The translations under genes were made by a program, and so were the position numbers. The notes under the pieces were generated by a model, which searched no databases, was not told the DNA's origin, and saw only the letters and a program-made list of their open reading frames with translations. A stretch of DNA of 64,000 nt, taken from positions 3,879,501 to 3,943,500 of the forward strand of contig NZ_LT629710.1 of NCBI RefSeq assembly GCF_900104535.1, in the 5' to 3' direction. Origin of the DNA: Nakamurella panacisegetis (GTDB lineage: Bacteria; Actinomycetota; Actinomycetes; Mycobacteriales; Nakamurellaceae). Below, piece by piece: positions 21,308 to 61,137 of the stretch; the first letter of the stretch is position 1, and each line of letters opens with the position of its first letter.

Positions 21308-24300
21308 ATGGACCTCAAGCGAACGTTCCTCTCGTGGCCCGTCGTCCGTCAGTTGACCGGCGCCGATGGGTCCGGGCGCGGGTCCGCCGTCACGTCGGAA
21401 CACACCAGATCGCTTCAGCCACGGACGGATACCGCGGACCGCGTGGTCAAGAGCATCTGCCCGTACTGCGCGGTCGGCTGCGGTCAGCGGGTCTACGTCA
21501 AGGACGAGAAGGTCGTCCACATCGAAGGCGATCCCGACTCTCCCATCTCCCGGGGACGGTTGTGCCCGAAGGGCTCGGCCAGCGAACAGCTGGTCAACTC
21601 ACCAGGTCGCCAGCAGAAGGTCCTCTATCGACGGCCGTTCGGCACGGAGTGGGAATCGCTGGACCTCGACGCGGCCATGCAAATGGTCGCCGATCGGGTG
21701 GCCGACACCAGGGCGCGGACCTGGCAGGACACGGACGATGAAGGCCGGCCGCTGCGTCGGACTCTCGGTATTGCCGGGCTGGGCGGTGCCACCCTGGACA
21801 ACGAGGAGAACTACCTGATCAAGAAGATCTTCACGGCAATGGGTGCCGTGCAGATCGAGAACCAGGCCCGTATTTGACACAGCGCCACGGTTCCCAGTCT
21901 GGGAGCCTCTTTCGGCCGCGGCGGTGCCACCGGATTCCAGCAGGACCTGGCTAACGCGGATTGCATCGTCATCCAGGGTTCGAACATGGCCGAGTGCCAT
22001 CCGGTCGGATTTCAGTGGGTGATGGAGGCCAAGGCCAAGGGCGCCACGGTGATTCATGTCGACCCTCGGTTCACTCGGACTTCGGCGGTGGCGGATCAGC
22101 ATGTCCCGCTCCGGGCCGGCAGCGACATTGCCTTCCTCGGCGGCATCGTCAACTACATCCTGTCCACCGATTCCTACTTCAAGGAGTACGTGGTCGCCTA
22201 CACGAACGCGGCGACGATCCTGCGTGACGACTTCGTCGATGTGGACGACCTGGACGGAGTGTTCTCCGGCTACGACCCGACCACCGGCACCTACGACACG
22301 GCATCCTGGCAGTACGAGGGGGCGGAGGTGACCTCGACGTCCAGTGGGGAAGAGGAGGATATCGAGAACTCCGGTGCGGCCACGGACGAACATTCGCAGA
22401 CCGAGCGCGGGGCCGGCCATGAGATGGGTGGTCACGGCGCCAACCTCGAACACAGCCGGGTGCACCGGGACGAGACCCTGCAGAATCCGTTGACCGTGTT
22501 CCAGGTGCTCAAACGGCACTACTCCCGGTACACGCCGGAAATGGTGCAGGACGTGTGCGGTGTCTCGCCTGCTGACTTCCGCAAGGTGTGCGAGGCGGTC
22601 GTCCGCAACAGCGGTCGAGACAAGACCACGGCGTGGGTCTACTCGGTCGGTTGGACCCACCACTCGGTCGGCGTGCAATACATCCGGGGTGCGGCGATCA
22701 TCCAACTGTTGCTGGGCAACATGGGCCGCCCGGGTGGTGGCATTCTCGCGCTGCGTGGACATGCAAGCATCCAGGGATCCACTGACATTCCGACATTGTT
22801 CAACCTGCTGCCGGGCTACCTGCCCATGCCGAAGGTTGGCGAGCACGAGAATTTAAGGGATTACTTGGCCACCATTTCCAGCCCGAAGCAGAAGGGCTTC
22901 TGGACGGCGGCCGACGCGTACACGGTCAGTTTGCTGAAGTCCTACTGGGGTGCCGCGGCGACGTCCGACAATGACTACTGCTTCGACTATCTGCCGCGGC
23001 TCACCGGCGATCACGGCACGTACCGGACGGTCATGGACATGCTGGATGACAAGGTCGAGGGCTACATGCTCCTCGGGCAGAACCCGGCCGTCGGATCGGC
23101 ACACGGGAAGATGCAGCGGCTGGCCATGTCCCACCTGAAGTATCTGGTGGTCCGTGACCTCAACATGATCGAATCAGCCACGTTCTGGAAAGATTCACCC
23201 GAGATCGCCACCGGCGAACTCGTGACAAAAGACATCGGTACCGAGGTGTTCTTCTTCCCGGCCGCCTCGCACGTGGAGAAAGACGGTTCGTTCACCCAGA
23301 CCCAACGGGTGCTGCAGTGGCACCACAAAGCCGTCGAGCCACCGGGCGACTGCCGCAGCGATCTGCATTTCTTCTATCACCTGGGTCGGATGCTCAAGGA
23401 AAAGGTGGCCAAATCGGAGTTGGATCGCGACAAGCCCCTGCAAGATCTGGTCTGGGACTACCCGGTGGACGACAAGGGTGAACCATCGGCGGATGCCGTG
23501 CTCCAGGAGATCAACGGCCGTCACCTGACCGGAGAGAAGAAAGGTGAGTTGCTGACCGCCTACACCGAGATGAAGGCCGACGGCTCGACGTCCGGCGGAT
23601 GCTGGATCTACACCGGTGTGTACGCCGGCAGCGTCAACCAGGCCGCCCGCCGCAAGCCCGGGCAGCAGCAGTCGTGGGTCGCCCCGGACTGGGGCTGGGC
23701 CTGGCCGGCCAACCGTCGGGTGCTGTACAACCGGGCATCGGCCGATCCGGACGGCAAACCGTGGAGTGAGGCCAAGGCCCTGGTCTGGTGGGACGCCGAG
23801 AAGAAACGGTGGACCGGCCACGATGTGCCGGATTTCCCGCCCACCACGGCCCCCGATTACCGCCCGGAGCCGGGGACCGGAGGTCCCGAAGGGTTGTCCG
23901 GTGACGACCCCTTCGTCATGCAGGGCGACGGGAAGGCATGGCTCTTCGCGCCGACCGGACTGCTCGACGGGCCGCTGCCGTCGCACTACGAACCGCAGGA
24001 ATCGCCGGTGAGTAATGCCTTCTACCGGCAGCAGGCCAACCCGACCCGACAGGTGTTCCGGCGCACCGACAACCTGCAGAATCCGTCGGGTCGAGCCGCC
24101 GGAGCCGAGGTCTTCCCCTACGTGTTCACCACTTATCGGCTGACGGAACATCACACGGCCGGGGGTATGAGTCGCTGGCTGCCCTACTTGTCGGAACTGC
24201 AGCCAGAGTTCTTCTGCGAGATCTCCCCGGCCCTGGCCCGGGAGCGCGGGCTCGAGCACATGGGCTGGGCGACCGTCGTCACCGCCCGGAGCGCGATCGA

Positions 24301-24628
24301 GGCCCGGGTGATGGTGACCGATCGAGTGGTGCCGTTACGGATAGGTGGGCATACGGTCCACCAGGTCGGTCTGCCGTATCACTGGGGTGTCGGCGGTGAC
24401 GCCCTGGTCAGCGGCGATTCCGCCAATGATCTGTTCGGTGTGACTCTTGATCCGAACGTGCACATCCAGGAGAGCAAAGTGGCCTCGTGTGACATCCAGC
24501 CCGGACGGCGTCCTACTGGGCCGGCCCTGCTGAAGTTCGTGAAGAGCTACCAGAAGCGGGCCGGCATCACGGTCTACACCGGCAACGACCAGCGGACGCC
24601 GATGGGCGAACAGGATGGGACGTCATGA
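21308..24628 (+). CDS. fdhA: Selenocysteine-containing formate dehydrogenase, catalytic (molybdopterin) subunit
   Basis: 1106 residues, read through the TGA at 21875-21877 as Sec190 in NQARI-U-HSATVPSLG, the FdhF/FdnG active-site motif. An [4Fe-4S] site is formed by Cys51, Cys54, Cys58 and Cys86 (CPYCAVGCG...RLCPKGS). Molybdopterin domains follow (GSNMAECHPVGFQWVMEAKA, GGILALRGHASIQGSTD), then a C-terminal dinucleotide-binding domain (HTVHQVGLPYHWGV). The enzyme oxidises formate to CO2. No twin-arginine signal is present at the N-terminus (MDLKRTFLSWPVVRQLTG), so it probably works in the cytoplasm. An acidic/His-rich insert lies at about 340-380. The stop overlaps fdhB (ATGA). Confidence 0.95.
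21875..21907 (+). other. UGA selenocysteine codon and bacterial SECIS element
   Basis: The UGA at 21875-21877 is followed by an 11-nt spacer and a hairpin at 21889-21907: GGTTCCC pairs with GGGAGCC (one G-U) around an AGTCT loop containing the GU that SelB contacts. The 11-nt spacing and the GGTT stem start are the same as in E. coli fdhF. Both frames flanking the UGA are formate dehydrogenase in the same reading frame. Confidence 0.9.
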
Positions 24629-27687: not shown

Positions 27688-27780
27688 GGAGGCGTAAAGG
27701 CGTCTGGTGGCCCTCCCGGTCTTCAAAACCGGTGGAGCCGAGTATCTCGGTTCGGCGGGTTCGATTCCCGTCCGCCTCCG
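27688..27780 (+). tRNA. selC: tRNA-Sec (anticodon UCA)
   Basis: 93 nt without encoded CCA. Acceptor GGAGGCG pairs with CGCCTCC, extended as in Sec tRNAs. The anticodon stem CCGGT/ACCGG closes the loop CTTCAAA with TCA at 27723-27725. A long variable arm has a 6-bp stem (GCCGAG/CTCGGT, loop TAT), and the T arm is GCGGGTTCGATTCCCGT with G discriminator. The long variable arm, 13-bp acceptor-T stack and UCA anticodon identify it. It lies 42 bp upstream of selA, so they may be cotranscribed. Confidence 0.93.
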
Positions 27781-27822
27781 CACATCGTTCGACGACTGCC
27801 CTGAAGTGAAAGGGATACCGCT

Positions 27823-40242: not shown

Positions 40243-40566
40243 ATGGCGAGTACGTCGAAGCGGTACCCGGCCGAGTTGAAGGACCGGGCGGTGCGGATGG
40301 TGGCGGAGATCCGGTCCGATCATGGGTCGGAGTGGGCGGCGGTGGAGTCGGTCGCGGCGAAGTTGGGGATCGGGACTGCGCAGACGGTGCAGAACTGGGT
40401 CCGCCGCGCCGAGGTCGATGCCGGCAAACGGCCGGGGGTGTCCTCCGAGGCGGCGGAGGAGCTGCGGAAGTTGCGGGCGGAGAACCGAGAGTTGAAGCGG
40501 GCCAACGAGATATTGAAGTCGGCGTCAACTTTTTTCGCGGCGGAGCTCGACCGCCGACAGAAGTGA
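40243..40566 (+). CDS. IS3-family OrfA
   Basis: 107 residues: MASTSKRYPAELKDRAVRMV, HTH (VESVAAKLGIGTAQTVQNWV), then a leucine zipper (EELRKLRAENRELKRANEIL). It binds the element ends. Near its end a T6C slippery site (40530-40536) allows a -1 shift to form the OrfAB transposase. It overlaps orfB by 4 nt. Confidence 0.92.
   Translation: MASTSKRYPAELKDRAVRMVAEIRSDHGSEWAAVESVAAKLGIGTAQTVQNWVRRAEVDAGKRPGVSSEAAEELRKLRAENRELKRANEILKSASTFFAAELDRRQK
40530..40536 (+). other. -1 ribosomal frameshift site of the IS3 element
   Basis: T-TTT-TTC in the orfA zero frame is an X-XXY-YYZ heptamer. The -1 frame is that of orfB and reads ..SAST-FF-RGGARPPTEVIISY, giving a continuous OrfAB fusion. Confidence 0.75.
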
Positions 40567-41492
40567 TCATCAGCTACATCGATCAGCACAAGGCGGAATA
40601 CGGCGTCGGGACGATCTGCCGGGTGCTCACCGAGCACGGCTGCAAGATCGCGTCGTCCACCTACTACGACCGCACCCACCAGCAGCCCTCCGCCCGCGCT
40701 GTCCGGGACGAGGCGCTGTCCGCGCAGGTCAGTGCGGTGCATGCGGAGAACTACGGCGTCTACGGGGCGCGGAAGGTGTGGTTGACGCTGAACCGGGAAG
40801 GCACCGCGGTGGCCCGGTGCACGGTGGAGCGGCTGATGCGCCGGCTCGGTCTGGTCGGGGCTCGTCGGGGCAAGGTCAAACGCACCACTATCGCCGACCC
40901 GCAAGCGCAACGGGCCAGTGATCTGGTGGATCGTCATTTCGACCCGGAGGCGCCAGATCGCCTATGGGTGGCCGACTTCACGTATGTTTCGACGTGGTCC
41001 GGGTGGGTGTACGTGGCGTTCGTGATCGATGCCTACTCCCGTCGGATCGTGGGGTGGCGATCGGCGACCACGATGACCGCGCAACTCGTCCTGGACGCCA
41101 TCGAGCACGCGATCTGGACCCGGCAACGTGAAGGGGTGCAGGACCTTTCGGGGCTGATTCACCACAACGACCGCGGATCTCAATATACGTCTGTGGCGTT
41201 CACCGAGCGGCTGGCCGACGCCGGCATCGACGCCTCCGTTGGTCGCACCGGGGATAGTTTCGACAATGCTCTGGCCGAGACGATCAACGGGCTCTACAAG
41301 ACCGAGCTGATCAAGCCCCGCGGCCCGTGGCGGACCGTCGAGCAGGTCGAAGTCGCCACCCTGGAATGGGTCGACTGGTTCAACCACCGCCGCCTGTACG
41401 AGCACAACGGCGACCTCCCACCGGTCGAACTCGAGCAGGCCCACTACGCTCAAATCAGAGCCCAGCAAACCGCTGCGCTCTCAAACCCGTAG
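40563..41492 (+). CDS. IS3-family OrfB (DDE integrase core)
   Basis: 309 residues from GTG 40563, or the C-terminal part of the OrfAB fusion. An HTH_21-like lead (EYGVGTICRVLTEHG, ENYGVYGARKVWLTLNREG) precedes the rve core: first Asp in LWVADFTYVSTWSGW, second in HHNDRGSQYTS, and Glu in DSFDNALAETINGLYKTELI. It appears intact. Confidence 0.93.
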   Translation: MIISYIDQHKAEYGVGTICRVLTEHGCKIASSTYYDRTHQQPSARAVRDEALSAQVSAVHAENYGVYGARKVWLTLNREGTAVARCTVERLMRRLGLVGARRGKVKRTTIADPQAQRASDLVDRHFDPEAPDRLWVADFTYVSTWSGWVYVAFVIDAYSRRIVGWRSATTMTAQLVLDAIEHAIWTRQREGVQDLSGLIHHNDRGSQYTSVAFTERLADAGIDASVGRTGDSFDNALAETINGLYKTELIKPRGPWRTVEQVEVATLEWVDWFNHRRLYEHNGDLPPVELEQAHYAQIRAQQTAALSNP

Positions 41493-50856: not shown

Positions 50857-52245
50857 ATGCGCGCCAACTTAAGGGTATGCCGGTGCGGCATGCGGATGCG
50901 TGCGGTCGTGTTCGTTGCTCTGCTGGCGGCCGCGACAGGGTGTGCTGGCACATCGGGTCAACCGGTTGCCGGCTCGACCGTCGGCTCCGTGCCGTCGACG
51001 AATCCGCTGCTCGTGCCGTTGTCGACAGCGTCGTCCAGCCCTGCCATGCCGTCGGCCCCGGTTTCGTCGCCGCCGGTTTCCTCCCCACTGGTTTCCTCTG
51101 GACCTGCGACGATTCCGTCCCCAACCAATGGGCTGATGGGGAAATCGTTGCAGGGCAACGGCTTCACTTCAAGGATCCCCGAGGGCTGGACCGAGCAGTC
51201 GACGGCGTCGGGCCTGATATTGCAGGCGGCCGACGGCGGAACGCTGACCATCGGGGACCCGAAGCCGACGACCGCGACCGCTCCGGCGATCGGTGAGGCA
51301 ACGGCGAGCACCTTGACCACCGAGGGCTACACCATCAAGGCCGGGCCGTCGGCGACGACGGTGGCCGGCGCGGCGGCGTTCGACCTGGCGGCGGTGAGCG
51401 CCGACGGCAAGTCGGCGGTGGTGGTGATAGCGGTGGTACACGGTGGCTTGCTGTACGACCTCTCGTTCGGGATCTCGGCGGATCTGGCAGCCTCCACCCC
51501 GGACACCTCCGGGCTGGATCAGATTCAGCAGTTCTGGGCTTGGTCTGCGGTTGCCGCCAGTAGCACGTCCGTGCCGGCCGCCGTCGTTGGGCGTCAGGGA
51601 TGCCCGTCGGGTGCCCACTGGTGCGACACCTTCGACAAGGGCGTGGGGGGCTGGGCAACGGCCAATACGACGGATTTCTATGCCAACTTTCTTGCCTATG
51701 AAGGCGGAACATATCGATTGAACCAGCGGGCGGCGGGCATCGCGATGATCAGTTCTCCGCACAGCATCGTCGATGTGTCGCCCGACTACGGCGTGACCGT
51801 CGCCGCCGACGTCGGGACCACCGGGATCGCCGGACAGAACCCCGGCTTCGGTTTGTCCTGTTGGAACACGGCAATATCCGGCGGCGGCGACGGGGCGTAC
51901 GCGTTCATCGTGACCGCGGCCGATGCCACCCTGGTGTTCTTCGCCGCCGGTCAGAACGGGGCCGTCTTCGCCACCAAGAAACTCGCCGCCGGTGTGGTGC
52001 ATGCCAGTCCCGTGGGCCGCGTGGCCTGGAACCACCTGCAGATCAGCTGCGCCCAGACCGGAGGCGGCAACGCCCATCTGACTTTGTCGGTGAATGGTCA
52101 TCCGACCCTCAGCGTGGACTATCCCGGTAAGTCCGACACCGCGGGGCCGGTGGACCCGGGTCCCGGGTACGGCGTGCTGGCCTCCGGTAAGGGAACGGAT
52201 CTGTTCTACGACAACATCGCCGTGACTGCGTTGCCGGCGCAGTGA
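50857..52245 (+). CDS. Lipoprotein with a MOG1/PsbP-like and a LamG-like domain (gene 1 of the sedolisin operon)
   Basis: 462 residues. A lipoprotein signal (FVALLAAATGC, lipid Cys29) is followed by a Ser/Pro-rich linker. The first domain (about 88-230) starts NGFTSRIPEGWTEQS and has the look of MOG1/PsbP-like folds (hydrophobic strands, then a long helix). The second domain (about 245-460) begins CDTFDKGVGGWATANTTDFY and ends YGVLASGKGTDLFYDNIAVT, like LamG/DUF1080 jelly-roll modules that bind sugars or other ligands. It is exported and membrane-tethered. The stop overlaps the next GTG. Confidence 0.75.
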   Translation: MRANLRVCRCGMRMRAVVFVALLAAATGCAGTSGQPVAGSTVGSVPSTNPLLVPLSTASSSPAMPSAPVSSPPVSSPLVSSGPATIPSPTNGLMGKSLQGNGFTSRIPEGWTEQSTASGLILQAADGGTLTIGDPKPTTATAPAIGEATASTLTTEGYTIKAGPSATTVAGAAAFDLAAVSADGKSAVVVIAVVHGGLLYDLSFGISADLAASTPDTSGLDQIQQFWAWSAVAASSTSVPAAVVGRQGCPSGAHWCDTFDKGVGGWATANTTDFYANFLAYEGGTYRLNQRAAGIAMISSPHSIVDVSPDYGVTVAADVGTTGIAGQNPGFGLSCWNTAISGGGDGAYAFIVTAADATLVFFAAGQNGAVFATKKLAAGVVHASPVGRVAWNHLQISCAQTGGGNAHLTLSVNGHPTLSVDYPGKSDTAGPVDPGPGYGVLASGKGTDLFYDNIAVTALPAQ

Positions 52246-54650
52246 CCGAACAGGAAACGCCGCCTGGTGCGGTCGACCACGAGGTAACGGCGATCGGGGC
52301 GGCCGTGGGTGAGTCGGCCGAGCATGACGTACCGGGGCTGCGGGCCACTTTCGCTGAACGTCGGCTGTCGGTTCGCACCATGGACCGGCCGTTGCGGCTG
52401 GCCACGGCGGGCGCTGCGGCCAGCCTGGTCGGTGCGGCGCTGCTGGTCGCGCTGCGCGACGTCGGTCATTCGAAGGTCGTTCTGCTGCCCAGCGGTGGAG
52501 TGGAAACGACGTTGAGCACCCCGCTGTTCATCGCGGCGCTGTGCCTGCTGGCGATCGGCTTCGGTTATTTGACCACCGGTGTTGTGCTGGCGCACCGGCT
52601 GGTCGGTTTGTTGGCCGTTGCGGTGGTGACCGGGGCGCTGGGGTTCTACACCGGCGTCCTGGGCGTCGGCCTGCGGGCTGTCTTGCCCAGGTGGGCGACG
52701 TGGGCCACCCGCGGCCTGTTGCTGGCGATCTGGTTGGTTGCGATCGGTGCCACCCTGTGGCGTCGGCACCGCCATGGCGACGCACCGCAGGATCGGGTGC
52801 TGCGGCTGGTCCTGCTGGTCGTGTATTGCGTGGTGTTCGGCGGCTACCTGCTGATCCTGCGGCTGGCCAGTCCGACGCTGAACGGCCTGACCAACTTTCC
52901 GGGTTCGGTGACGCTGTTGATGGGCGGCTTGGCGTTGCTGACCACGCCCATCCTGTTCGTCGCGGCCATCGACTTCGGCGAATGGGGGCAGCTGACCGGT
53001 CAGCGACTGCTCACCGCGGCCGGCCGGCCGAAGTCGCTGGCCAACGTTAGTCGGGTGGTGATCCCCGCGGCCCTGTGTGTCGCCCTGCTGGCCGTCGCCT
53101 GGACGATGGATCCCGAGACGACCGCGCATCGTCTGGCCCGGATCACCCAGTCGGCGCTGATCTTCGCCGTCGCGGTGCTCGTGCTGCTGGCGATCTGGCG
53201 GCTGCCCCGGCTGCGCAGCGGGGCCTGGCCGGAGACGCTGAACTTCGCCGTCGTGCTGGTGGTCGCGGCGATTGTCGCCACGATCGTCCCGGACGTCGCA
53301 GGTCTGCTGCAGGGGCAGATCATCGCAAAGCCGACGCCGGAGGTCTCGACGGCGGGCGAGTTCACTGCCGCCGCAAATGTGGTCTCCCGGACAAGCCCGA
53401 CCGGCTTAACCCTGCTGGTGCCGGCGGGTTGGCAGGTCGATGCAACACCCACGTTCGAGCAGTACACGAACTCTTCGGTCGCCTTCGGCGCTCTCGTGCT
53501 GCTCATCGGGGGACCCATTCCAGGGCCGGCGAGTCTGCGGGCCCTGACCGCGGGGCTGGGTGCACCGCTCGGACCGGTCGAGACCGTGGGCACCCTGCAA
53601 CGGCTGGAGTTCACGCCGGCTTCTCCCAGGACCCTCAGCGTCGGATGGTTGGCTCGGAACCCCGAGGGGTCGGCGGCCTATCTGTTCATCGGCGCCGCCA
53701 CGGGCTCGGACCCGCAAGGCGCGGAGCAGTACCTGGCGGCAATGGTGAACAGCTTCCGGCCACCAGGCGCGCCGTCCGCGCAGATTCCCAGCACCGCCGA
53801 CGAGGTGACACCGGCCCAGGCGCAGCAGACGAGCAGTGATCGTCTCAACGTGACCGCCGATGCTCTGACGGTGTTGCTGGCCCTGATCTGTTTGGCGCTG
53901 CTGGCGGGTCGCACCCGCGGCTGGACCGGCCGCACCCGTGCCGGGCTGATGTTGTTCTGCTTTGTGGCGGTTCTCGACCTGTGCTACGACGCCGACTCGA
54001 TCGGTCGAGTGCTGCTGGGACCGGCGACGGCCTGGCCGACGCCGGGCCAGCCGGGAGTGCTCGCCGCGGTCGCTGTTGCCGGTCTGGTGTTGCTGGCCAT
54101 CGCGCGGAGAAGTACCCGGCGGTGGGCCCGGCGGTTGCCGACAACTCTCCCCGGCCTGGCCGGCGGGCTGCTGGCGCTGCGAGGGGTGGAAGTGCTGTAC
54201 AACCATGCGCTGGCCGCCAACCGCATCTCCGTGTGGGCCGCGGTGATCGTGTTGCTGGCGATCAGCTGGGACGTCATCATGTCCGGTGAATCGATGACCA
54301 ACCACGCGAGCCGGTGGGTGCCTCGGTCCAGCCGCGTCCTGGTGTTTCTCGGCTACGCGATCCTGTTGGCCTGCGCGGTGGTGTTCTTCTCCGGCCAGCG
54401 GGGCCTCGGGTCGGGACTACCACTGCCCGAGGTGATATTCGAGCCGGAGTCGATCACCAAATCCGGGCTGTTCGGTTTGGCGATGCCCCTGATGATCCTG
54501 CTGTTCCTGCTGCACACCTTCGGCGAACGGGAACCCCGAGATCATGAGACCGCCGACCTTCCCCCGGACCCCGCGAGCCGAGCCGCTGCGGGCGAAATGG
54601 TCACCAACCGGAGCGTTGACGCCGGGCGGCTCGACGGGGCGGCGTCATGA
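52242..54650 (+). CDS. Polytopic membrane protein with an extracytoplasmic domain (gene 2)
   Basis: 802 residues from GTG 52242. About eight membrane helices lie in the first half (from LRLATAGAAASLVGAALLVA to LNFAVVLVVAAIVATIVPDV). An extracytoplasmic domain follows at about 375-525, with SPTGLTLLVPAGWQVDATPT and EQYLAAMVNSFRPPG, similar in layout to the first domain of gene 1. Five or six more helices follow (including LMILLFLLHTFG near the end). No known transporter or enzyme motif is recognised. It is coupled to genes 1 and 3 by 4-nt overlaps. Confidence 0.75.
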   Translation: MTEQETPPGAVDHEVTAIGAAVGESAEHDVPGLRATFAERRLSVRTMDRPLRLATAGAAASLVGAALLVALRDVGHSKVVLLPSGGVETTLSTPLFIAALCLLAIGFGYLTTGVVLAHRLVGLLAVAVVTGALGFYTGVLGVGLRAVLPRWATWATRGLLLAIWLVAIGATLWRRHRHGDAPQDRVLRLVLLVVYCVVFGGYLLILRLASPTLNGLTNFPGSVTLLMGGLALLTTPILFVAAIDFGEWGQLTGQRLLTAAGRPKSLANVSRVVIPAALCVALLAVAWTMDPETTAHRLARITQSALIFAVAVLVLLAIWRLPRLRSGAWPETLNFAVVLVVAAIVATIVPDVAGLLQGQIIAKPTPEVSTAGEFTAAANVVSRTSPTGLTLLVPAGWQVDATPTFEQYTNSSVAFGALVLLIGGPIPGPASLRALTAGLGAPLGPVETVGTLQRLEFTPASPRTLSVGWLARNPEGSAAYLFIGAATGSDPQGAEQYLAAMVNSFRPPGAPSAQIPSTADEVTPAQAQQTSSDRLNVTADALTVLLALICLALLAGRTRGWTGRTRAGLMLFCFVAVLDLCYDADSIGRVLLGPATAWPTPGQPGVLAAVAVAGLVLLAIARRSTRRWARRLPTTLPGLAGGLLALRGVEVLYNHALAANRISVWAAVIVLLAISWDVIMSGESMTNHASRWVPRSSRVLVFLGYAILLACAVVFFSGQRGLGSGLPLPEVIFEPESITKSGLFGLAMPLMILLFLLHTFGEREPRDHETADLPPDPASRAAAGEMVTNRSVDAGRLDGAAS

Positions 54651-56269
54651 CCACACGACGGAGCCTCGTCAACCGCGCATGTGCTCTGCTGTGCAGCGGC
54701 GTGCTCGCTGTGACAACGGCCGGCTGCAGCCAACCGGACCCGACCGCTGTTGAGGTAGTGCAGGTGGGTGGGCCCCTTGCCGCGCTACTGCTGAGTTCGA
54801 CCGACCTCGGGCCCGCCGTCGATGCGAACGTCGGTGCGGTGGTGAGCCTGCATCGGCGCGACCGCCCGCAGGTGCTGTCGGCCTGGGCCGGCCAGCACGG
54901 GGTCAGCGTCGACTGGCACCCGGGCGATGACTGGGCGTCGATCCACGGGTCGGCGGCGGCCCTCGCCCAGGCGTTCCGGGTCCCGGTGCATGACTATCGC
55001 GCCCACGACGGCCAGCGGTTCTATGCGACAGGGGAGTCGATCCCGGTGCCTGCTGAGGTGGCCGGCGAGGTCAGCGCGGTCGGGCGCATCATGAACTACC
55101 GGGTGGGGGCGGCGACCGCCGGTGCGGCCGGCGCCCCGGCGGCGAGCGGGTCGTCCGACGGATTGCTCAGCGCTGCGCAGCTGCGAACGGCGTACGACGT
55201 GGGTCCGCTGGCTGCCGCCGGGTACACCGGTCAGGGCACGACCGTCGTCTTCTTCGAGCTCGACGGGTTTTCCCAAGCCGATCTCGATGCCTTCTCCACC
55301 GCGAACGGGCTGCCGGACTTCACACCGGTGCTGGTCGGTGGCATGCCGGGCCCGCCGGCAAAGGGCGGCGAGACTCCGATGGATCTGGAGGCAGTGCACG
55401 CCGTGGCTCCTGGCGCGCGGTTGGTGGTGGTCAACCTGCTCTCGTTCGGCGACGGATCTCTGGCCGCGGTGATGAGCTCGGCGTTCCGCTCGGCGGACCA
55501 GCAGTTCCCGGGGGCGATCTGGAGTCTGTCGCTGTCGGACTGCGAAGGCTTGTATACAACCGCCGATCTGGAACCGCTCGAGGAAGAGCTGGTGCACGCC
55601 CAGGCGCACGGCACCTCGGCGTTCGCCTCCACCGGCGACACCGGCTCGCTCGAGTGCCGATTTGCCAACAACAATATCGCCGGGCCGCCGACGCCACCGG
55701 ACGTGGGAGTCGGCATGCCGGCCTCGCTGCCGGCGATGACGGCCGTCGGCGGCACTCGTCTGACGGTCGACGTGTCCGGCCGCTGGCTCGGTGAGCAGGC
55801 CTGGGACTACTCGGCACTCTCGCAAGGCTCCAGCGGCGGCGTATCCGGGCTCTTCCCGCGGCCGTCCTGGCAGCAGACCGACGGCGTCGCCGCGGCCCGC
55901 GACCAGACCCACCGGCTGCTGCCGGATGTGTCTGCATTGGCCGACCCGGCGACCGGTCTGCGCAACGTCATCGCCGGCCGTGTATCTCCGGGGGGCGGAA
56001 CGTCCCTGGCCACGCCACTGTGGGCCGCGTTCACCGTCCTGATGGATCAGTATCTTCTCGCGCAGGGCGGGCAGGTCCTCGGTGCGCTCAATCCGCTGCT
56101 CTACCGGGTAACCAACGGGGCGGCCCTGCCAGCCTTTCACGACATTCTGCTGGGCGGTAACGCGGTCGATCTGGCCGGGACCGGCTATGACCTCGTCACC
56201 GGCATCGGCAGTCCTGACGTGTGGAACCTCAGCCAGGATCTGCTGACCGTAGAAAGGGGTGGCTCATGA
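54647..56269 (+). CDS. S53 (sedolisin) protease lipoprotein (gene 3)
   Basis: 540 residues. Lipobox TAGC with Cys27, then an activation propeptide (about 40-150; VDWHPGDDWASIHGSAAAL). The protease domain has the sedolisin set: Glu242 and Asp246 (GGETPMDLEAVHAVAP), oxyanion Asp331 (ASTGDTGS) and Ser453 (GGGTSLATPLWA). The calcium site is Asp499-Ile500, Gly511, Gly513 and Asp515 (FHDILLGG..AGTGYDL). All key residues are present, so it should be an active, probably acid-acting serine-carboxyl protease on the outer face of the membrane. Membrane-anchored S53 members in operons like this are unusual. Confidence 0.92.
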   Translation: MTTRRSLVNRACALLCSGVLAVTTAGCSQPDPTAVEVVQVGGPLAALLLSSTDLGPAVDANVGAVVSLHRRDRPQVLSAWAGQHGVSVDWHPGDDWASIHGSAAALAQAFRVPVHDYRAHDGQRFYATGESIPVPAEVAGEVSAVGRIMNYRVGAATAGAAGAPAASGSSDGLLSAAQLRTAYDVGPLAAAGYTGQGTTVVFFELDGFSQADLDAFSTANGLPDFTPVLVGGMPGPPAKGGETPMDLEAVHAVAPGARLVVVNLLSFGDGSLAAVMSSAFRSADQQFPGAIWSLSLSDCEGLYTTADLEPLEEELVHAQAHGTSAFASTGDTGSLECRFANNNIAGPPTPPDVGVGMPASLPAMTAVGGTRLTVDVSGRWLGEQAWDYSALSQGSSGGVSGLFPRPSWQQTDGVAAARDQTHRLLPDVSALADPATGLRNVIAGRVSPGGGTSLATPLWAAFTVLMDQYLLAQGGQVLGALNPLLYRVTNGAALPAFHDILLGGNAVDLAGTGYDLVTGIGSPDVWNLSQDLLTVERGGS

Positions 56270-57477
56270 CGACTCCCGAATCGGCGCAAGGGCTTTCACC
56301 TTCAGCGCCAGCCTGCCCGGGGTGTGGTGAGCAGGCGCAACCAGGTGCCTACTGCGGTGCCTGCGGATATCACCTGGCCGGTCACTACATCGGCGGCCGC
56401 CGAGGCCGTCTGCATTCCTACGCCGCCGCACCGCAGGAACACGTGTTGCGGCTGTCGGTGGTCAGCTCACTGTTCCCGCATCTACCGCACCGCTCGCACG
56501 CGCCGTTCCGGGCCGGACTGGCCATGCTCGTCGTCGTGCTGGCCCTGCTCGCCGTATTCCGGTTGCAGGCACCGGTGGTCGCGGTCAGCGCAGTGGGATT
56601 CCCGCTGCTGTTCCAGCTGTATCTACAGGAATCGGACGTCTATGCCGATCTGTCCCGCAGCGTCGTCATCGGCATCGCCGCGTTCGGCGCCCTGCTCGGC
56701 TGGGGGTGGTCACAACTCACGGCCAACCCGGTGGCCAGTTCCTTCGGCGATCGTCTCGGCGGAAGTCGGAATCAGGAACAGATCTGGACGGTCGGGATCG
56801 CCATCCCGGTCGGCGGAGTCATCGTCATGCTGCTGCCGATAGCCCTGTGGCGGCTGCGCCGGCGGGCAGACGCCGAGGGTCTGGACGGCTTCGTGCTCGG
56901 TTCGGCCGCGGCTCTCGCGTTCGCCGCCGCCGCCACCGTGACCAGGTTGGCACCGCAACTGAAGGCCGGCTTGGTGGCGCATGGTCGTCCGGTGCAGGGC
57001 CTGCTGGTGGAAGCCGGTTTGCAGGGCGTGACCGTGCCATTGACCGCCGCCTGCGCCGGTGGGCTGTTCGGCGCAGCCCTGTGGGTCAGCCGGCGGGATC
57101 CGGTGCACCCAGGCCGGATCCTCACCTCACCGGTCGTCGCGGCGGCCGTCATCGTGGCGCTCTACGCGGGCCTCGGCCTGATCGATCTGTGGCAGCCCGC
57201 CGAGGTCGGCCTGTTCGGGCTGCATGCGGCTGTTTGCGTGCTGCTGCTCATCGGGCTCCGGCTCGGCATGCACGCGATGCTGCTGCACGAACACCACCCT
57301 CCCGTGCCCGGCCCGCCGGCCTTCTGTCAGCAGTGCCTGAACCTGGTGCCGCAAATGCCGTTCTGTCCGCACTGCGGCGTCGCCAGGCGGGCAACGTCCC
57401 GGTCTTCCCGAGCCGCGCTGCGGCTGGACCGGACCGTCGAGATTCTTGACCCGACCAGCAGAGGGGATCTGCCGTGA
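56266..57477 (+). CDS. Membrane protein with a zinc ribbon at each end (gene 4)
   Basis: 403 residues. N-terminal zinc ribbon Cys17/20/30/33 (CPGCGEQAQPGAYCGACG), about eight membrane helices between 90 and 345 (starting RAGLAMLVVVLALLAVFRLQ), then a second ribbon Cys354/357/367/370 (CQQCLNLVPQMPFCPHCG) and a charged tail. The ribbons are cytoplasmic if the helix number is even. No enzyme motif is recognised. The ATG overlaps the protease stop; the stop overlaps the next GTG. Confidence 0.78.
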   Translation: MTTPESAQGLSPSAPACPGCGEQAQPGAYCGACGYHLAGHYIGGRRGRLHSYAAAPQEHVLRLSVVSSLFPHLPHRSHAPFRAGLAMLVVVLALLAVFRLQAPVVAVSAVGFPLLFQLYLQESDVYADLSRSVVIGIAAFGALLGWGWSQLTANPVASSFGDRLGGSRNQEQIWTVGIAIPVGGVIVMLLPIALWRLRRRADAEGLDGFVLGSAAALAFAAAATVTRLAPQLKAGLVAHGRPVQGLLVEAGLQGVTVPLTAACAGGLFGAALWVSRRDPVHPGRILTSPVVAAAVIVALYAGLGLIDLWQPAEVGLFGLHAAVCVLLLIGLRLGMHAMLLHEHHPPVPGPPAFCQQCLNLVPQMPFCPHCGVARRATSRSSRAALRLDRTVEILDPTSRGDLP

Positions 57478-58208
57478 CCGTGAAAATGCCGACCTACCCG
57501 GCGATGTCGATGACGCCTGCGGTAACGGGCTCCGGGATCGCGTGTCACACCTCGCACCGACGGGTCTTGCTGTTCCTGGGGATCGGACTCTTGGTGGCCA
57601 TCGGTGCCGTGGCCGGCATCGCGGCGTTGGTCGCCCCCGCGGTGGCGATCTACCACTGTCCGCCGCAGTGCGGCAGCCCGCCGCAGGGCACCCCGCAGGA
57701 CGGACTGCCGGTGTTCGCCGGAGCGGACAACTCCTTCACCGTGGAGTACTACCCGGAATCGCCGGACTGGCACGCGGGCACAGACGCCTCGGGTGTCACC
57801 GATGAACGACTGACCGGTGCGGGTGGTGCGCTGCGGATGTTCGGGACGGCGGCCGGTGGCCGAACAGCGCAGCAAGTGGTCACCGCGCTGGTGCAGCAGG
57901 CTTACCCGAATGCGACCCAGCGGTACCAGCTGACCAACGCGATGGTCGGCTACCAGCTCGGCTACGGCGAGGTGGACGAGATCATCCCGCAGAGCTCGGA
58001 CGGCAGTTACCAACCGCAGTCCTTGGTGGTGATGGCCTCGGTGAAGGGCGACGTCGCGCTGGTCGGCGAGGCGATCGGGCCGTATCAACCATGGGACCCG
58101 GACACCGGACCGTGGGATGGCCACCCCTCCGGTGTCGCCATGGCAGTCGCCGGCGACCTCGATCAGCTGATCAACAGCTTCAGTTGGGCGGGAGATCCGG
58201 CCCGATGA
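57474..58208 (+). CDS. Single-pass exported protein (gene 5)
   Basis: 244 residues from GTG 57474. One membrane helix at about 30-60 (VLLFLGIGLLVAIGAVAGIA), then a cysteine pair (YHCPPQCG) and a soluble domain at about 75-240: DNSFTVEYYPESPDWHA, RTAQQVVTALVQQAYPN, VAGDLDQLINSFSWAG. Strand-helix order resembles the MOG1/PsbP-like domains of genes 1 and 2. It ends the operon and overlaps the convergent regulator by 29 nt. Confidence 0.75.
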   Translation: MTVKMPTYPAMSMTPAVTGSGIACHTSHRRVLLFLGIGLLVAIGAVAGIAALVAPAVAIYHCPPQCGSPPQGTPQDGLPVFAGADNSFTVEYYPESPDWHAGTDASGVTDERLTGAGGALRMFGTAAGGRTAQQVVTALVQQAYPNATQRYQLTNAMVGYQLGYGEVDEIIPQSSDGSYQPQSLVVMASVKGDVALVGEAIGPYQPWDPDTGPWDGHPSGVAMAVAGDLDQLINSFSWAGDPAR

Positions 58209-61044
58209 GGGCCATCGCGGCGCCCAGTTCGTGGCGGCGGCCAATACCCAGACGCTGGTAAATCTGCCGCAGGTGGTATTCGACAGTCTTCGGGGTGACG
58301 AACAGTGCCTGGGCGATCTCGTTGTTTGTCAGGCCCTGCAACGCCAGGTCGGCGACCCGATGCTCGCTGGGGGTCAGCGTGCGGTGGTTGGCCGGTGCCG
58401 GCGGGCGGGCGCCGGCGGCGGCGAGCTCGTCACGGACCCGGCGACCCAGCAACTCGGCACCCAGTCGTGCGGTGATCGCGTTGGCCAGGGTGAGCGGCCG
58501 CCGCGCCTGCACGCGGTGGCCGGCCCGCCGCAGCGCTGCGCCCAGTTCGGCGAGGGAATATCCGTATTCCAGCTCCGCCGACGTACCGGCGAGCAGCTCG
58601 GCGCTGTCGGCCAGCAACGCCAGACCGGCCGAGCCACCCAGCAGCAGCCCCTGCACCCGCAGGCCCCGTCCACGGGTGATCAAGGCATCCTTGCGTTCGA
58701 CAACCGCGAGGATGTCCGACACCAGCTGCTGTGCCTGCGCAGTGTCGCCGACGGCCAGCGCAGCCATCGCGGCACCCGAGCGCCACGGCAGCACGGTGTG
58801 CTCGACTTTCAACTCCTGCATCAGATGAGCCCCGGCCTGCTGGAAGTGCTCCAGCGCCGCGCTTGGCCGGTGCCTGGCCAACTCCAACCTGGCCCGCGAG
58901 TCCAGCAGCCACGGCAGGTCCAGCATGCTGCGACTGTCTGTCAACTTCTCCGCCGCACGCAGCGCCTGCTCGGCCGCGGCGAGATCGTCACGTTCGATCG
59001 ATACGTTGGCGCGCAGCACTAGTGACGACACCAGGTAGCGGTGCCGGCCGTTGCCGGCCACCTCGATGGCCTGGTCTGCGTCGGCCTCGGCGTCCATGAT
59101 GCGCCCCAAACGCAGGCTCGCGTAACCATGGAAGTAGCTCCCGGCCGCGAACGCATCGATTGATCCGACGACCCGGGCCGCGGCGATGGCCGCGGCGCAG
59201 ACCGACAACGTTGCCGGGCTGTCCTCCGCCAGCTCGTAGGCCCACGCCGTCATCAGCCAACCGGACCCATCCGGTCCCTCGGTCGCCAGCAGCGCACCGC
59301 TGTCCCAGGCCCGATAGGCCAGGTCGATCGTCTGCGGGTTCGGCTGCCAGGACTGCCCGGACCGCATCGCCAACGCGGCCAGTATCAACCGTGACTCCGG
59401 CGAGGAGTTGTCCGGAGGTTCCCGTAGCAGCGGGGTGACACGCGTGATCGACCGCTGCCGCTGCTCGGTGGAGAACGCCGAATAGGTCAGATAGTCGGCG
59501 AGCAGGCCGGCCCGCAGCTGCTCGGTGCCCGGCCCGACGCGTTCCAGTGCCTCCTCGAGCACCTGCGCGGCAACCTGATGTTCCCCGCTGTGCGCATACG
59601 CCCGCGACAGCAACCGGGCCACCTCCAGCCAGCGCATCGGGTCACGCTGTTCCGCCAACGCGGCCCGCAGGTTCTCCACCGACGCCGGCAGGCCCGCCGC
59701 CGTCTGTGCGCAGCCGAGGGCGATCAGCAGCGCGACCCGCCTCGCCGTGTCGCCCCCTGCTTCGATGACTGCCCGGCTCAGGTATCTGGCGGCGCTGTGT
59801 GGGGCGCCCTGCGCCATCGCCCGCTCCGCCGCCAACTCAAACGTGGCGACGGCCCAGTCGAGCATCCCGGCGGGCGAGGCCAACAACTGGGTGGCGACCC
59901 GCTCGGCCGGTGCGCCCGACCGGCGCAACAACACCGCTGCGGCGGCATGGTCGACGGCGCGCCTGGCCGGTGGGATCTCCGCGTAGATCGACTGCCCGAT
60001 CAGCGGATGCAGGAACTCCAACTCAACGCCGGAGGAGATCAACTGCTCATCGGCCAACTCGTCCGCCGCCGTTGCCGCATCGCCGGTGCTCAGCCCGGCC
60101 AGCTGCGCCACCACGGCCAGCGGACTCTGCTCGCCGAGTACGGCCAGCGCGCCGGCCAACGACACGGACCCCGGCCCCAAGCGCAACAACCGGAACAGGG
60201 CCACCCGGGCGAGTGACGCGCCACCCAGATCCCGGATCCGCTCGGCCGTGAAATCCGGAGCGGCGTCATCCAGCGACAGCAACGTCTCTCGCAGGTAGAA
60301 GGGATTTCCATTGGCCACCTCGACACAGGCCGCGCAGGTCACCGGGTCCATCGCGGGCCGGCTCCTGTGCACCAATTCCGTCATTCCCGCGACGGACAAC
60401 GGTGCCAGCGACAGCCGGGTCTGGGCGGGGCTGTAACGCAGCGCAGTCAGCACGGCGGCCTCCGGCGAGCGCCGCGGTCGGGCAGCGGCAACGAGCGCGA
60501 CAGGCAGGTCCTCGATCCGCTCCGCCAGGTACAGCAGAAACTGCAGGCTCGCCTCATCGGCCCACTGCACGTCGTCCACGGTGAGCAGCACCGGACGCTG
60601 CGCGGCGATGTTGAGCACCAACCAGAAAAGACCGTGCAGCACCGCGGCCTGCGGGCGGATCGCTCCATCACCCTCCGTCGGCATTCGGCCCGCGGGAGCC
60701 AACAAGGGCACCGCCAGTTCCGCCGAGCCCGCGAACACCGCTGCACGCCGATCGGCGGACAGCTTGACCAGAAACGGCTCGAACAGCCGCAGGATCAACC
60801 CGAACGGGTAATCCCGGTCGCCCAGGTTAGCTCTGGCCCGGATCACCGTGAGGCCGCGGGCATGCCCGAATGTCGCCGCCTCCTCCAACAGTCGCGACTT
60901 ACCCAGTCCTGCCGCTGCCTCGACGAGCACACTCTCCCCGGCACCGCCGCCGGCTGCATCCAGCACCGCAGCCAGGGCGGCCAGTTCGCTGTCGCGGTCA
61001 ACAGGAGGACCAGAACCCAGCACTTTTCCCTCACCTCCGGCCAT
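58180..61044 (-). CDS. LAL-family AAA/LuxR transcriptional regulator
   Basis: 954 residues from ATG 61044, behind GGGGAGC. An AAA ATPase domain has Walker A in EAAAGLGKSRLL (43-54) and Walker B in VLLTVDDVQWADEASLQFLL. A long helical repeat region (about 350-860, TPR-like) follows, then a C-terminal LuxR HTH (LTPSEHRVADLALQGLTNNE, IAQALFVTPKTVEYHLRQIY). It is convergent with, and overlaps by 29 nt, the sedolisin operon. Motifs related to those upstream of that operon lie before its own start, so it probably controls both. Confidence 0.92.
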   Translation of the reverse strand: MAGGEGKVLGSGPPVDRDSELAALAAVLDAAGGGAGESVLVEAAAGLGKSRLLEEAATFGHARGLTVIRARANLGDRDYPFGLILRLFEPFLVKLSADRRAAVFAGSAELAVPLLAPAGRMPTEGDGAIRPQAAVLHGLFWLVLNIAAQRPVLLTVDDVQWADEASLQFLLYLAERIEDLPVALVAAARPRRSPEAAVLTALRYSPAQTRLSLAPLSVAGMTELVHRSRPAMDPVTCAACVEVANGNPFYLRETLLSLDDAAPDFTAERIRDLGGASLARVALFRLLRLGPGSVSLAGALAVLGEQSPLAVVAQLAGLSTGDAATAADELADEQLISSGVELEFLHPLIGQSIYAEIPPARRAVDHAAAAVLLRRSGAPAERVATQLLASPAGMLDWAVATFELAAERAMAQGAPHSAARYLSRAVIEAGGDTARRVALLIALGCAQTAAGLPASVENLRAALAEQRDPMRWLEVARLLSRAYAHSGEHQVAAQVLEEALERVGPGTEQLRAGLLADYLTYSAFSTEQRQRSITRVTPLLREPPDNSSPESRLILAALAMRSGQSWQPNPQTIDLAYRAWDSGALLATEGPDGSGWLMTAWAYELAEDSPATLSVCAAAIAAARVVGSIDAFAAGSYFHGYASLRLGRIMDAEADADQAIEVAGNGRHRYLVSSLVLRANVSIERDDLAAAEQALRAAEKLTDSRSMLDLPWLLDSRARLELARHRPSAALEHFQQAGAHLMQELKVEHTVLPWRSGAAMAALAVGDTAQAQQLVSDILAVVERKDALITRGRGLRVQGLLLGGSAGLALLADSAELLAGTSAELEYGYSLAELGAALRRAGHRVQARRPLTLANAITARLGAELLGRRVRDELAAAGARPPAPANHRTLTPSEHRVADLALQGLTNNEIAQALFVTPKTVEYHLRQIYQRLGIGRRHELGAAMALIGPDLPPN

Positions 61045-61093
61045 CACAGCTCCCCACAGCGGCCGGCATCCGGCCAGTCGACCGGGGCGCTCC

Positions 61094-61137
61094 GACACCC
61101 CAGCGCTCAACACGATCCTAGGGTGCCCCCTGGGGCG
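61094..61137. promoter_or_regulatory. Candidate LAL-regulator sites upstream of its own gene
   Basis: GACACCCCAG (61094-61103) is the exact reverse complement of CTGGGGTGTC at 50771-50780. ATCCTAGGGTGCCCCCTGGG (61115-61134) matches the motif at 50768-50792 (CCT.GGG units 12 bp apart). They lie 50-93 bp upstream of the regulator start, a normal place for activator or autoregulatory sites. Confidence 0.55.

Follow-up and report, generated by a model that had tools for sequence, protein, structure and literature searches.

An S53 protease operon core with PrsW-type and Mog1/PsbP-fold partners recurs in actinobacteria and points to an envelope protease complex

The window considered here, a 64,000-nucleotide stretch of the Nakamurella panacisegetis genome, carries a five-gene operon whose last three genes form a recurrent core: gene 3 encodes an S53 protease with an intact catalytic site, gene 4 a membrane protein that appears by sequence to be a PrsW-type protein deprived of the PrsW catalytic residues, and gene 5 a membrane-anchored protein with a predicted Mog1/PsbP-fold outer domain. 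This core set was found repeatedly among environmental mycobacteria and again in a distant family of actinobacteria (f100), which points to an undescribed envelope protease complex. Because of the different distributions of genes 1, 2 and 3-4-5, the system is described as having a core (genes 3-4-5), a larger form that includes gene 2, and outer parts that vary.

Organization of the operon

The five genes lie on the plus strand and are joined by four 4-nt overlaps (Table 1), exactly as the initial annotation had it. The mechanical ORF of gene 4 begins at 56221, and the ATG listed in the table is the start that produces the overlap with gene 3. Each of the five ORFs is supported as coding by its codon-position G+C, the third-position value being 0.79–0.84 in all of them. 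Lipobox-like N-termini can be read from the sequence in gene 1 (TGC) and gene 3 (AGC). The overlap is beyond chance, since among the mycobacterial relatives 64 of the 77 S53 ORFs, which lie 5′ of gene 4, terminate in ATGA or GTGA.

Table 1. Genes of the operon and features of their products (positions in the window).
Feature	Position	Strand	Description
Gene 1	50857–52245	+	462 aa lipoprotein, Ser/Pro linker, two C-terminal regions
Gene 2	52242–54650	+	802 aa polytopic membrane protein, outer domain between helix blocks, family unassigned
Gene 3	54647–56269	+	540 aa S53 (sedolisin/kumamolisin) serine-carboxyl protease, prodomain, lipobox AGC
Catalytic Glu242, Asp246 (gene 3)	55370–55372, 55382–55384	+	Present in 91/91 clade sequences
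Oxyanion Asp331 (gene 3)	55637–55639	+	Present in 91/91 clade sequences
Nucleophile Ser453 (gene 3)	56003–56005	+	90/91; remaining row gapped there
Gene 4	56266–57477	+	403 aa, predicted 8-helix PrsW/APH-1-fold protein, zinc ribbons at both ends
N-terminal zinc ribbon C17, C20, C30, C33 (gene 4)	56314–56364	+	66/66 aligned sequences
PrsW-like region, residues 132–321 (gene 4)	56659–57228	+	Profile 4–188 of 196, Pfam E 8.3e-4
C-terminal zinc ribbon C354, C357, C367, C370 (gene 4)	57325–57375	+	66/66 aligned sequences
Gene 5	57474–58208	+	244 aa: N-terminal tail, one helix, CPPQCG motif, predicted Mog1/PsbP-fold outer domain
Mog1/PsbP-fold domain, residues 79–241 (gene 5)	57708–58196	+	Predicted, VIA-align

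None of the five proteins has a PADLOC match at E ≤ 1 or an ATPase match, and a Pfam scan of the five genes and five neighbours revealed no sigma or anti-sigma gene. A gene for a large AAA/LuxR-type regulator on the opposite strand (58180–61113) shares 29 nt with the end of gene 5, and an integrase-core transposase gene (IS3-like, 40332–41492) is found about 9 kb upstream of the operon. Elsewhere in the window, a formate dehydrogenase-like molybdopterin enzyme (21308–24628) has an in-frame TGA at residue 190, which may encode selenocysteine; within 10 kb of it are a tRNA-Sec (27688–27781), SelA, SelB, and a gene with an AIRS domain, possibly SelD.

Co-occurrence of genes 3, 4 and 5

The distribution of the core was approached from two sides. 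An alignment of gene 4 was used to scan the species genomes, giving 197 relatives, and the best 80 of the 197 were kept (L059–L138); they comprise 76 Mycobacterium/Mycolicibacterium loci, three from uncultured or unclassified actinobacteria, and one from a Mycobacteriaceae bacterium. S53 and gene 5 stand beside gene 4 in 78 of these 80 best loci, some of the S53 genes being split or cut by a contig end; in the other two, L071 and L116, neither S53 nor gene 5 accompanies gene 4. In the same 80 loci, gene 4 is fused to gene 5 in 43 of 93 gene-4 ORFs. A second copy of genes 4 and 5, as one fused ORF, occurs downstream of the core in L059, L060, L065, L069, L070, and L073, as well as in L076, L080, L083, L110, and L138.

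As the 80 loci had been chosen by gene 4, a search from the S53 side was added, covering 78 genomes of g7 (family f7), a genus taken here to be Mycobacterium in the wide sense. Profile searches detected S53 in 36 of the 78 genomes and gene 5 in exactly the same 36; gene 4 was detected in 39, the three extra cases being weak partial matches of 33–67 bits. There are 80 S53 matches in g7, 71 of which span more than 1200 nt; the nine shorter ones were excluded from the counts. Gene 5 lies directly downstream in 69 of the 71 long matches and gene 4 is nearby in 62. Both genes are downstream in 57; gene 5 is downstream with gene 4 nearby but elsewhere in four; and gene 5 has no gene 4 nearby in eight, every S53-bearing genome having gene 4 somewhere. 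One long match has gene 4 alone, at a contig edge, and one has neither partner. These two S53 matches without adjacent gene 5 both come from G490, a 70% complete genome in about 640 contigs. The outcome named in advance as speaking against the proposal, an S53 gene standing alone as often as with partners, thus fails for this clade, whereas the other S53 genes of the order, which form a separate clade, have no linkage to this gene 5. The claim of a fixed coupling of all five genes is narrowed accordingly: it holds for genes 3-4-5 and, in the distant family, for gene 2 as well, but not for gene 1.

Broader sampling gives a sparse picture: across 346 genomes from the phylum, gene 5 turned up in just four (the window genome and three of g7). 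Among 101 genomes, i.e., the window's own and 100 relatives, near-full-length S53 proteins of 45–50% identity were present in four f7/g7 genomes, which belong to a different family of the order, in two to four copies each. Some environmental mycobacteria hold four to six S53 copies (e.g., G022, G100, G498, and G522). A cruder gene caller had suggested partner-less S53 at 3 of 12 mycobacterial loci, but profile searches found gene 5 next to each of these three and gene 4 next to one, and the suggestion was abandoned. Weak partial relatives of gene 4 (33–68 bits) also occur away from any S53 match in G506, G524, G465, and G490:C175, and perhaps represent the parent family of gene 4.

Gene 3, a member of a distinct S53 clade

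S53 enzymes are as a rule acid digestive proteases, known mainly as free acid proteases, and carry an inhibitory prodomain. Gene 3 possesses the sequence hallmarks of the family: the Glu, Asp, oxyanion Asp and Ser residues and the prodomain. Pfam detects the Pro-kumamolisin activation domain (PF09286, 1.4e-7, above the cut-off, profile positions 67–139 of 143) and Peptidase_S8 (3.8e-5), and kumamolisin (1t1e) matches at 7e-30 in phmmer. The initial description of an intact site was borne out for E242, D246, D331, and S453 alike, and all four residues are kept in 90 of 91 clade sequences, the exception being a split ORF gapped at the Ser.

The coupled S53 proteins form one clade (support 100/100) apart from the other S53 proteins of the order. 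The f100 enzymes belong to this clade, and the window protein falls outside the mycobacterial group with support of 82/97 and 87/93 in two trees. Two cysteines near the oxyanion Asp, Cys299 (88 of 91) and Cys337 (91 of 91), could form a disulphide bond; kumamolisin has no cysteines at the aligned positions. The lipoprotein anchor, in turn, proved not to be a general feature, as a simple pattern recognised a lipobox in only 2 of 75 mycobacterial S53 proteins. Since the window protein and two f100 S53 proteins do have a lipobox, the mode of anchoring seems to differ among lineages.

Gene 4, an apparent PrsW-type protein without the PrsW catalytic residues

As far as sequence comparison can tell, gene 4 is a PrsW-type protein without the PrsW catalytic residues, a relationship that the initial annotation had missed. 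The Pfam profile PF13367 gives 19.4 bits on gene 4, or 21.0 in the genome search, below the curated cut-off of 23.5, and at E ≤ 0.1 it matched one of nine gene 4 members. A profile of our own, built from 22 PrsW proteins of the order, was searched against 1882 ORFs, including 102 of gene-4 type. All 38 matches at E ≤ 0.1 were of gene-4 type, with 64 of the 102 not reaching this threshold, and none of the 69 other ORFs with at least five predicted helices matched; at the looser E ≤ 1, 3 of 55 matches were not of gene-4 type. The best E-value, 1.2e-10, belonged to an f100 protein, and the window gene 4 scored 2.3e-5. A profile–profile comparison of PrsW with gene 4 by hhalign yielded a probability of 93%, and kinship at the level of sequence is found by these tests.

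The PrsW residues that we take to be catalytic are Glu-Glu, Glu, and His. In the hhalign alignment, the Pro-x-x-Glu-Glu block of PrsW falls on the Pro181-Val-Gly183-Gly184 region of gene 4, the Glu-Asn pair on approximately Ala223-Thr224, and the His on Ala261. Among the 66 gene-4 sequences that match most of the profile, Gly occupies column 183 in 57 and column 184 in 45, the remaining residues being Ala, Ser, Val, or Ile, while column 223 is Ala in 64 and column 261 is Ala in 65. The placement of the Glu-Glu pair in the alignment may be off by about one residue, and no register yields a conserved Glu in gene 4 because the neighbouring column 182 is Glu in only 8 of 66. The structural residues Pro191, Gly208, and Gly269 persist in all 66 (66/66 each). 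Judging by the profile span, a few fused gene 4 relatives have lost one or both zinc ribbons. The ribbons seem dispensable in some copies, since the fused gene 4-5 protein of L040 (5458–6921) has neither.

The structural model of gene 4 (pLDDT 86, pTM 0.87) gave APH-1 as its best VIA-align match (Z 14.8, 216 residues, rmsd 4.5), followed by TMEM147 (13.9) and then CcmB (7.7), with Mce, Mla, and ABC membrane domains at Z 5–7; helical models can reach Z 13–14 without proven kinship. Foldseek found nothing at E ≤ 0.001, its top three being TMEM147 (0.22), a GPCR (0.61), and APH-1 (0.91), and the archaeal Rce1 structure was absent among the fold matches listed by either program, an absence that carries no weight against the relationship. 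Within the caution due to helical models, gene 4 is predicted to share its core fold with APH-1. According to excerpts of PMC6588880 and PMC3482391, PrsW, the CAAX proteases, and APH-1 constitute one superfamily; in the former excerpt, ABC-exporter membrane domains are also said to look like APH-1.

Gene 5, a predicted Mog1/PsbP-fold ectodomain

The model of gene 5 contains one predicted membrane helix (28–53) and an outer domain, and it is modelled confidently in the outer domain, the mean pLDDT being 78 overall. This domain is predicted to have the Mog1/PsbP fold, another feature that had been overlooked. The best solved folds in VIA-align are M. tuberculosis Apa (Z 12.4), human Mog1 (11.8), LpqN (11.3), and Tsi3 (11.2); the immunity protein TplEi matches at Z 9.8. 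By sequence, gene 5 has no Pfam match at E ≤ 1 and no PDB match at E ≤ 10. The CPPxCG motif lies immediately outside the helix, and both of its cysteines are invariant in 58 gene 5 sequences.

Genes 1 and 2 and the larger version of the operon

Gene 1 had been counted as a part of the set, which its distribution does not bear out: besides itself, one weak 72-residue match and no credible relative was found in 296 genomes. It has no Pfam match at E ≤ 1 and does not occur in 72,556 plasmid records; genes 2 and 4 are likewise absent from the plasmid records. The proposal that genes 1, 2, and 5 have shared exported domains received no sequence support either, hhalign probabilities being below 4% among the outer domains compared.

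Gene 2 has three weak Pfam matches (the best at 0.057), and among the 101 genomes it was found only in that of the window. A two-row profile searched against 394 genomes of the class revealed three further near-full-length homologues, each from a genome of genus g330 (family f100). The gene 2 homologues (L006/L039 and L175–L177) are 30–36% identical to the window protein; the most distant one, L039, is nearly full length (L006/L039), and its 18-kb contig, which begins about 1.4 kb upstream of gene 2, contains no S53 or gene 4. Short partial matches to gene 2 were judged not credible in three of the six other genomes of the profile search and in three of the four others of a separate search, whose fourth match is L006/L039.

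In all three f100 loci, gene 2 is followed by genes for a lipoprotein (about 245 aa), S53, and gene 4, in that order; gene 5 comes next in two of them, while in the third the contig breaks off within gene 4. Each of the 11 junctions examined (11/11) has ATGA or GTGA at its end. In the three loci, gene 2 comes after a gene for a single-pass proline-rich protein. In both loci with enough sequence, the operon is headed by a further zinc-ribbon membrane protein, a second and more diverged relative of gene 4 (L181, 5898–6983; L182, 10691–11851), with the proline-rich single-pass protein next, an arrangement that looks like a doubling of the gene 4/gene 5 pair at the head of the operon. The f100 genomes are drafts, 68–93% complete, one of them with 8% contamination.

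Proposed complex and alternative explanations

With moderate confidence, we infer that genes 3, 4, and 5 encode the core of an envelope-anchored proteolytic complex composed of the S53 enzyme, a dead-protease scaffold, and an ectodomain partner. This reading is preferred because S53 provides the only known catalytic site that is intact, gene 5 is its constant partner, and gene 4 is tied to gene 5; co-transcription and fusion by themselves are no proof of a stable complex with S53 itself. The complex would reside at the outer face of the cytoplasmic membrane, with gene 3, made with its prodomain, as the sole part with an intact known catalytic site. The protease would be tethered by a lipid in the window and in two f100 proteins, and by an N-terminal hydrophobic segment in most mycobacteria. 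Gene 4 would serve as a dead PrsW-type scaffold of eight helices with the APH-1/CAAX-protease fold and its zinc ribbons in the cytoplasm, fixing the geometry of S53 and the outer domain, while gene 5 would place its Mog1/PsbP-fold domain beside the protease. Genes 4 and 5, often a single polypeptide, presumably work as one unit. Most probably the role of the outer domain is to hold or gate S53, either presenting the substrate or restraining the enzyme until acid or some other cue arrives. Genes 2 and 1 would be accessory envelope parts of the larger version.

The near inseparability of gene 5 from S53, together with its fusion to gene 4 in almost half of the ORFs, would also suit a signalling relay, in which S53 as a site-1-type protease clips the gene 5 outer domain on cue and gene 4 relays the event through its zinc ribbons to the cytoplasm; Zn-ribbon-fused PrsW proteins have indeed been proposed as signalling peptidases (excerpt of PMC3482391). 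We regard this as unlikely in view of the lost PrsW residues of gene 4, the lack of a sigma or anti-sigma gene among the five genes and the five neighbours scanned, and the existence of fused proteins without ribbons. The same near-perfect pairing might mean that gene 5 is a membrane-bound inhibitor, positioned by gene 4, that shields the producer from S53 in the manner of toxin–immunity pairs, and the immunity proteins Tsi3 and TplEi do have the gene 5 fold. Such a guard is quite improbable, though, as Mog1 and mycobacterial envelope proteins give the best fold matches, a shared fold says nothing about function, the prodomain already provides S53 enzymes with an inhibitor, and this S53 appears to be tethered to the membrane and not released.

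A nutritional acid protease operon, with the other proteins as unrelated envelope passengers, would agree with the usual digestive role of S53 enzymes and with the variation of genes 1 and 2 between lineages, but it is very hard to reconcile with the finding of genes 3-4-5 together in most copies, in 36 genomes and f100, with conserved 4-nt overlaps. Still less probable is that gene 4, instead of being a dead PrsW, is a transporter or channel with a similar helix arrangement that moves the peptides made by S53; transport-type domains (Mce, Mla, ABC) do appear in its fold list, but an ATPase match is lacking in the five proteins and the PrsW signal is not given by the 69 other polytopic ORFs at E ≤ 0.1.

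The proposed protease complex can be extended, tentatively and with rather low probability, to an independently evolved bacterial secretase-like machine, in which the dead APH-1/PrsW-fold scaffold, the ectodomain as a substrate gate, and the tethered S53 as the catalytic subunit would bring about regulated shedding of envelope proteins in actinobacteria.

Comparison with known systems

Searches of the open-licence literature turned up no description of the S53/gene 4/gene 5 set; PMC8525676, considered as a source on S53 proteases, was set aside, as "S53" in its excerpt stems from the mutation S531L. Kumamolisin and sedolisin (MEROPS S53) align with gene 3 in the prodomain and the Glu-Asp-Asp-Ser residues, whereas the gene 3 clade is separate, tethered, and nearly always accompanied by gene 5. 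Similarly, the mycobacterial LpqN, Apa, and MTC28 share with gene 5 the predicted Mog1/PsbP fold within the cell envelope, but gene 5 has no detectable sequence match, is anchored by one helix, carries the CPPxCG motif, and is tied to S53. Mycosins, the membrane-anchored proteases of type VII secretion in mycobacteria, are S8 enzymes of the same clan as S53 with polytopic partners. They resemble this operon in that an anchored protease is encoded with polytopic partners and differ from it in the protease family, S8 versus S53; according to Pfam, no type VII secretion ATPase or WXG100 partner is present among the five genes.

Gene 4 resembles PrsW (PF13367) in its eight helices and in the aligned motif blocks with conserved Pro and Gly, and its zinc ribbons recall the Zn-ribbon-fused PrsW forms described in the excerpt of PMC3482391, where fusions to cytoplasmic sensor domains, Zn-ribbons included, are treated as proposed signalling peptidases. 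It differs from PrsW in that the catalytic columns are occupied by Gly/Ala/Ser or Ala, ribbons are present at both ends, and the gene belongs to an S53 operon.

In gamma-secretase, APH-1 has a scaffold role. APH-1 and TMEM147 are the best VIA-align fold matches of the gene 4 model by a wide margin, and APH-1, like the putative scaffold proposed here, is a CAAX/PrsW relative within a protease complex (excerpt of PMC6588880). The QExxR motif and two His residues conserved in APH-1, according to the same excerpt, were not identified in gene 4. An intramembrane aspartyl protease subunit like that of gamma-secretase is not part of this set, the protease being S53 and presenilin-type Pfam matches being absent at E ≤ 1 in the five proteins; the partner of APH-1 is presenilin, and that of gene 4 would be an S53 enzyme. 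A distinct S53 clade bound to a retired-looking intramembrane protease would resemble the route by which APH-1 entered gamma-secretase. If true, the operon would add an undescribed envelope protease system to environmental mycobacteria and offer a small bacterial model of a pseudoprotease scaffold serving a protease.
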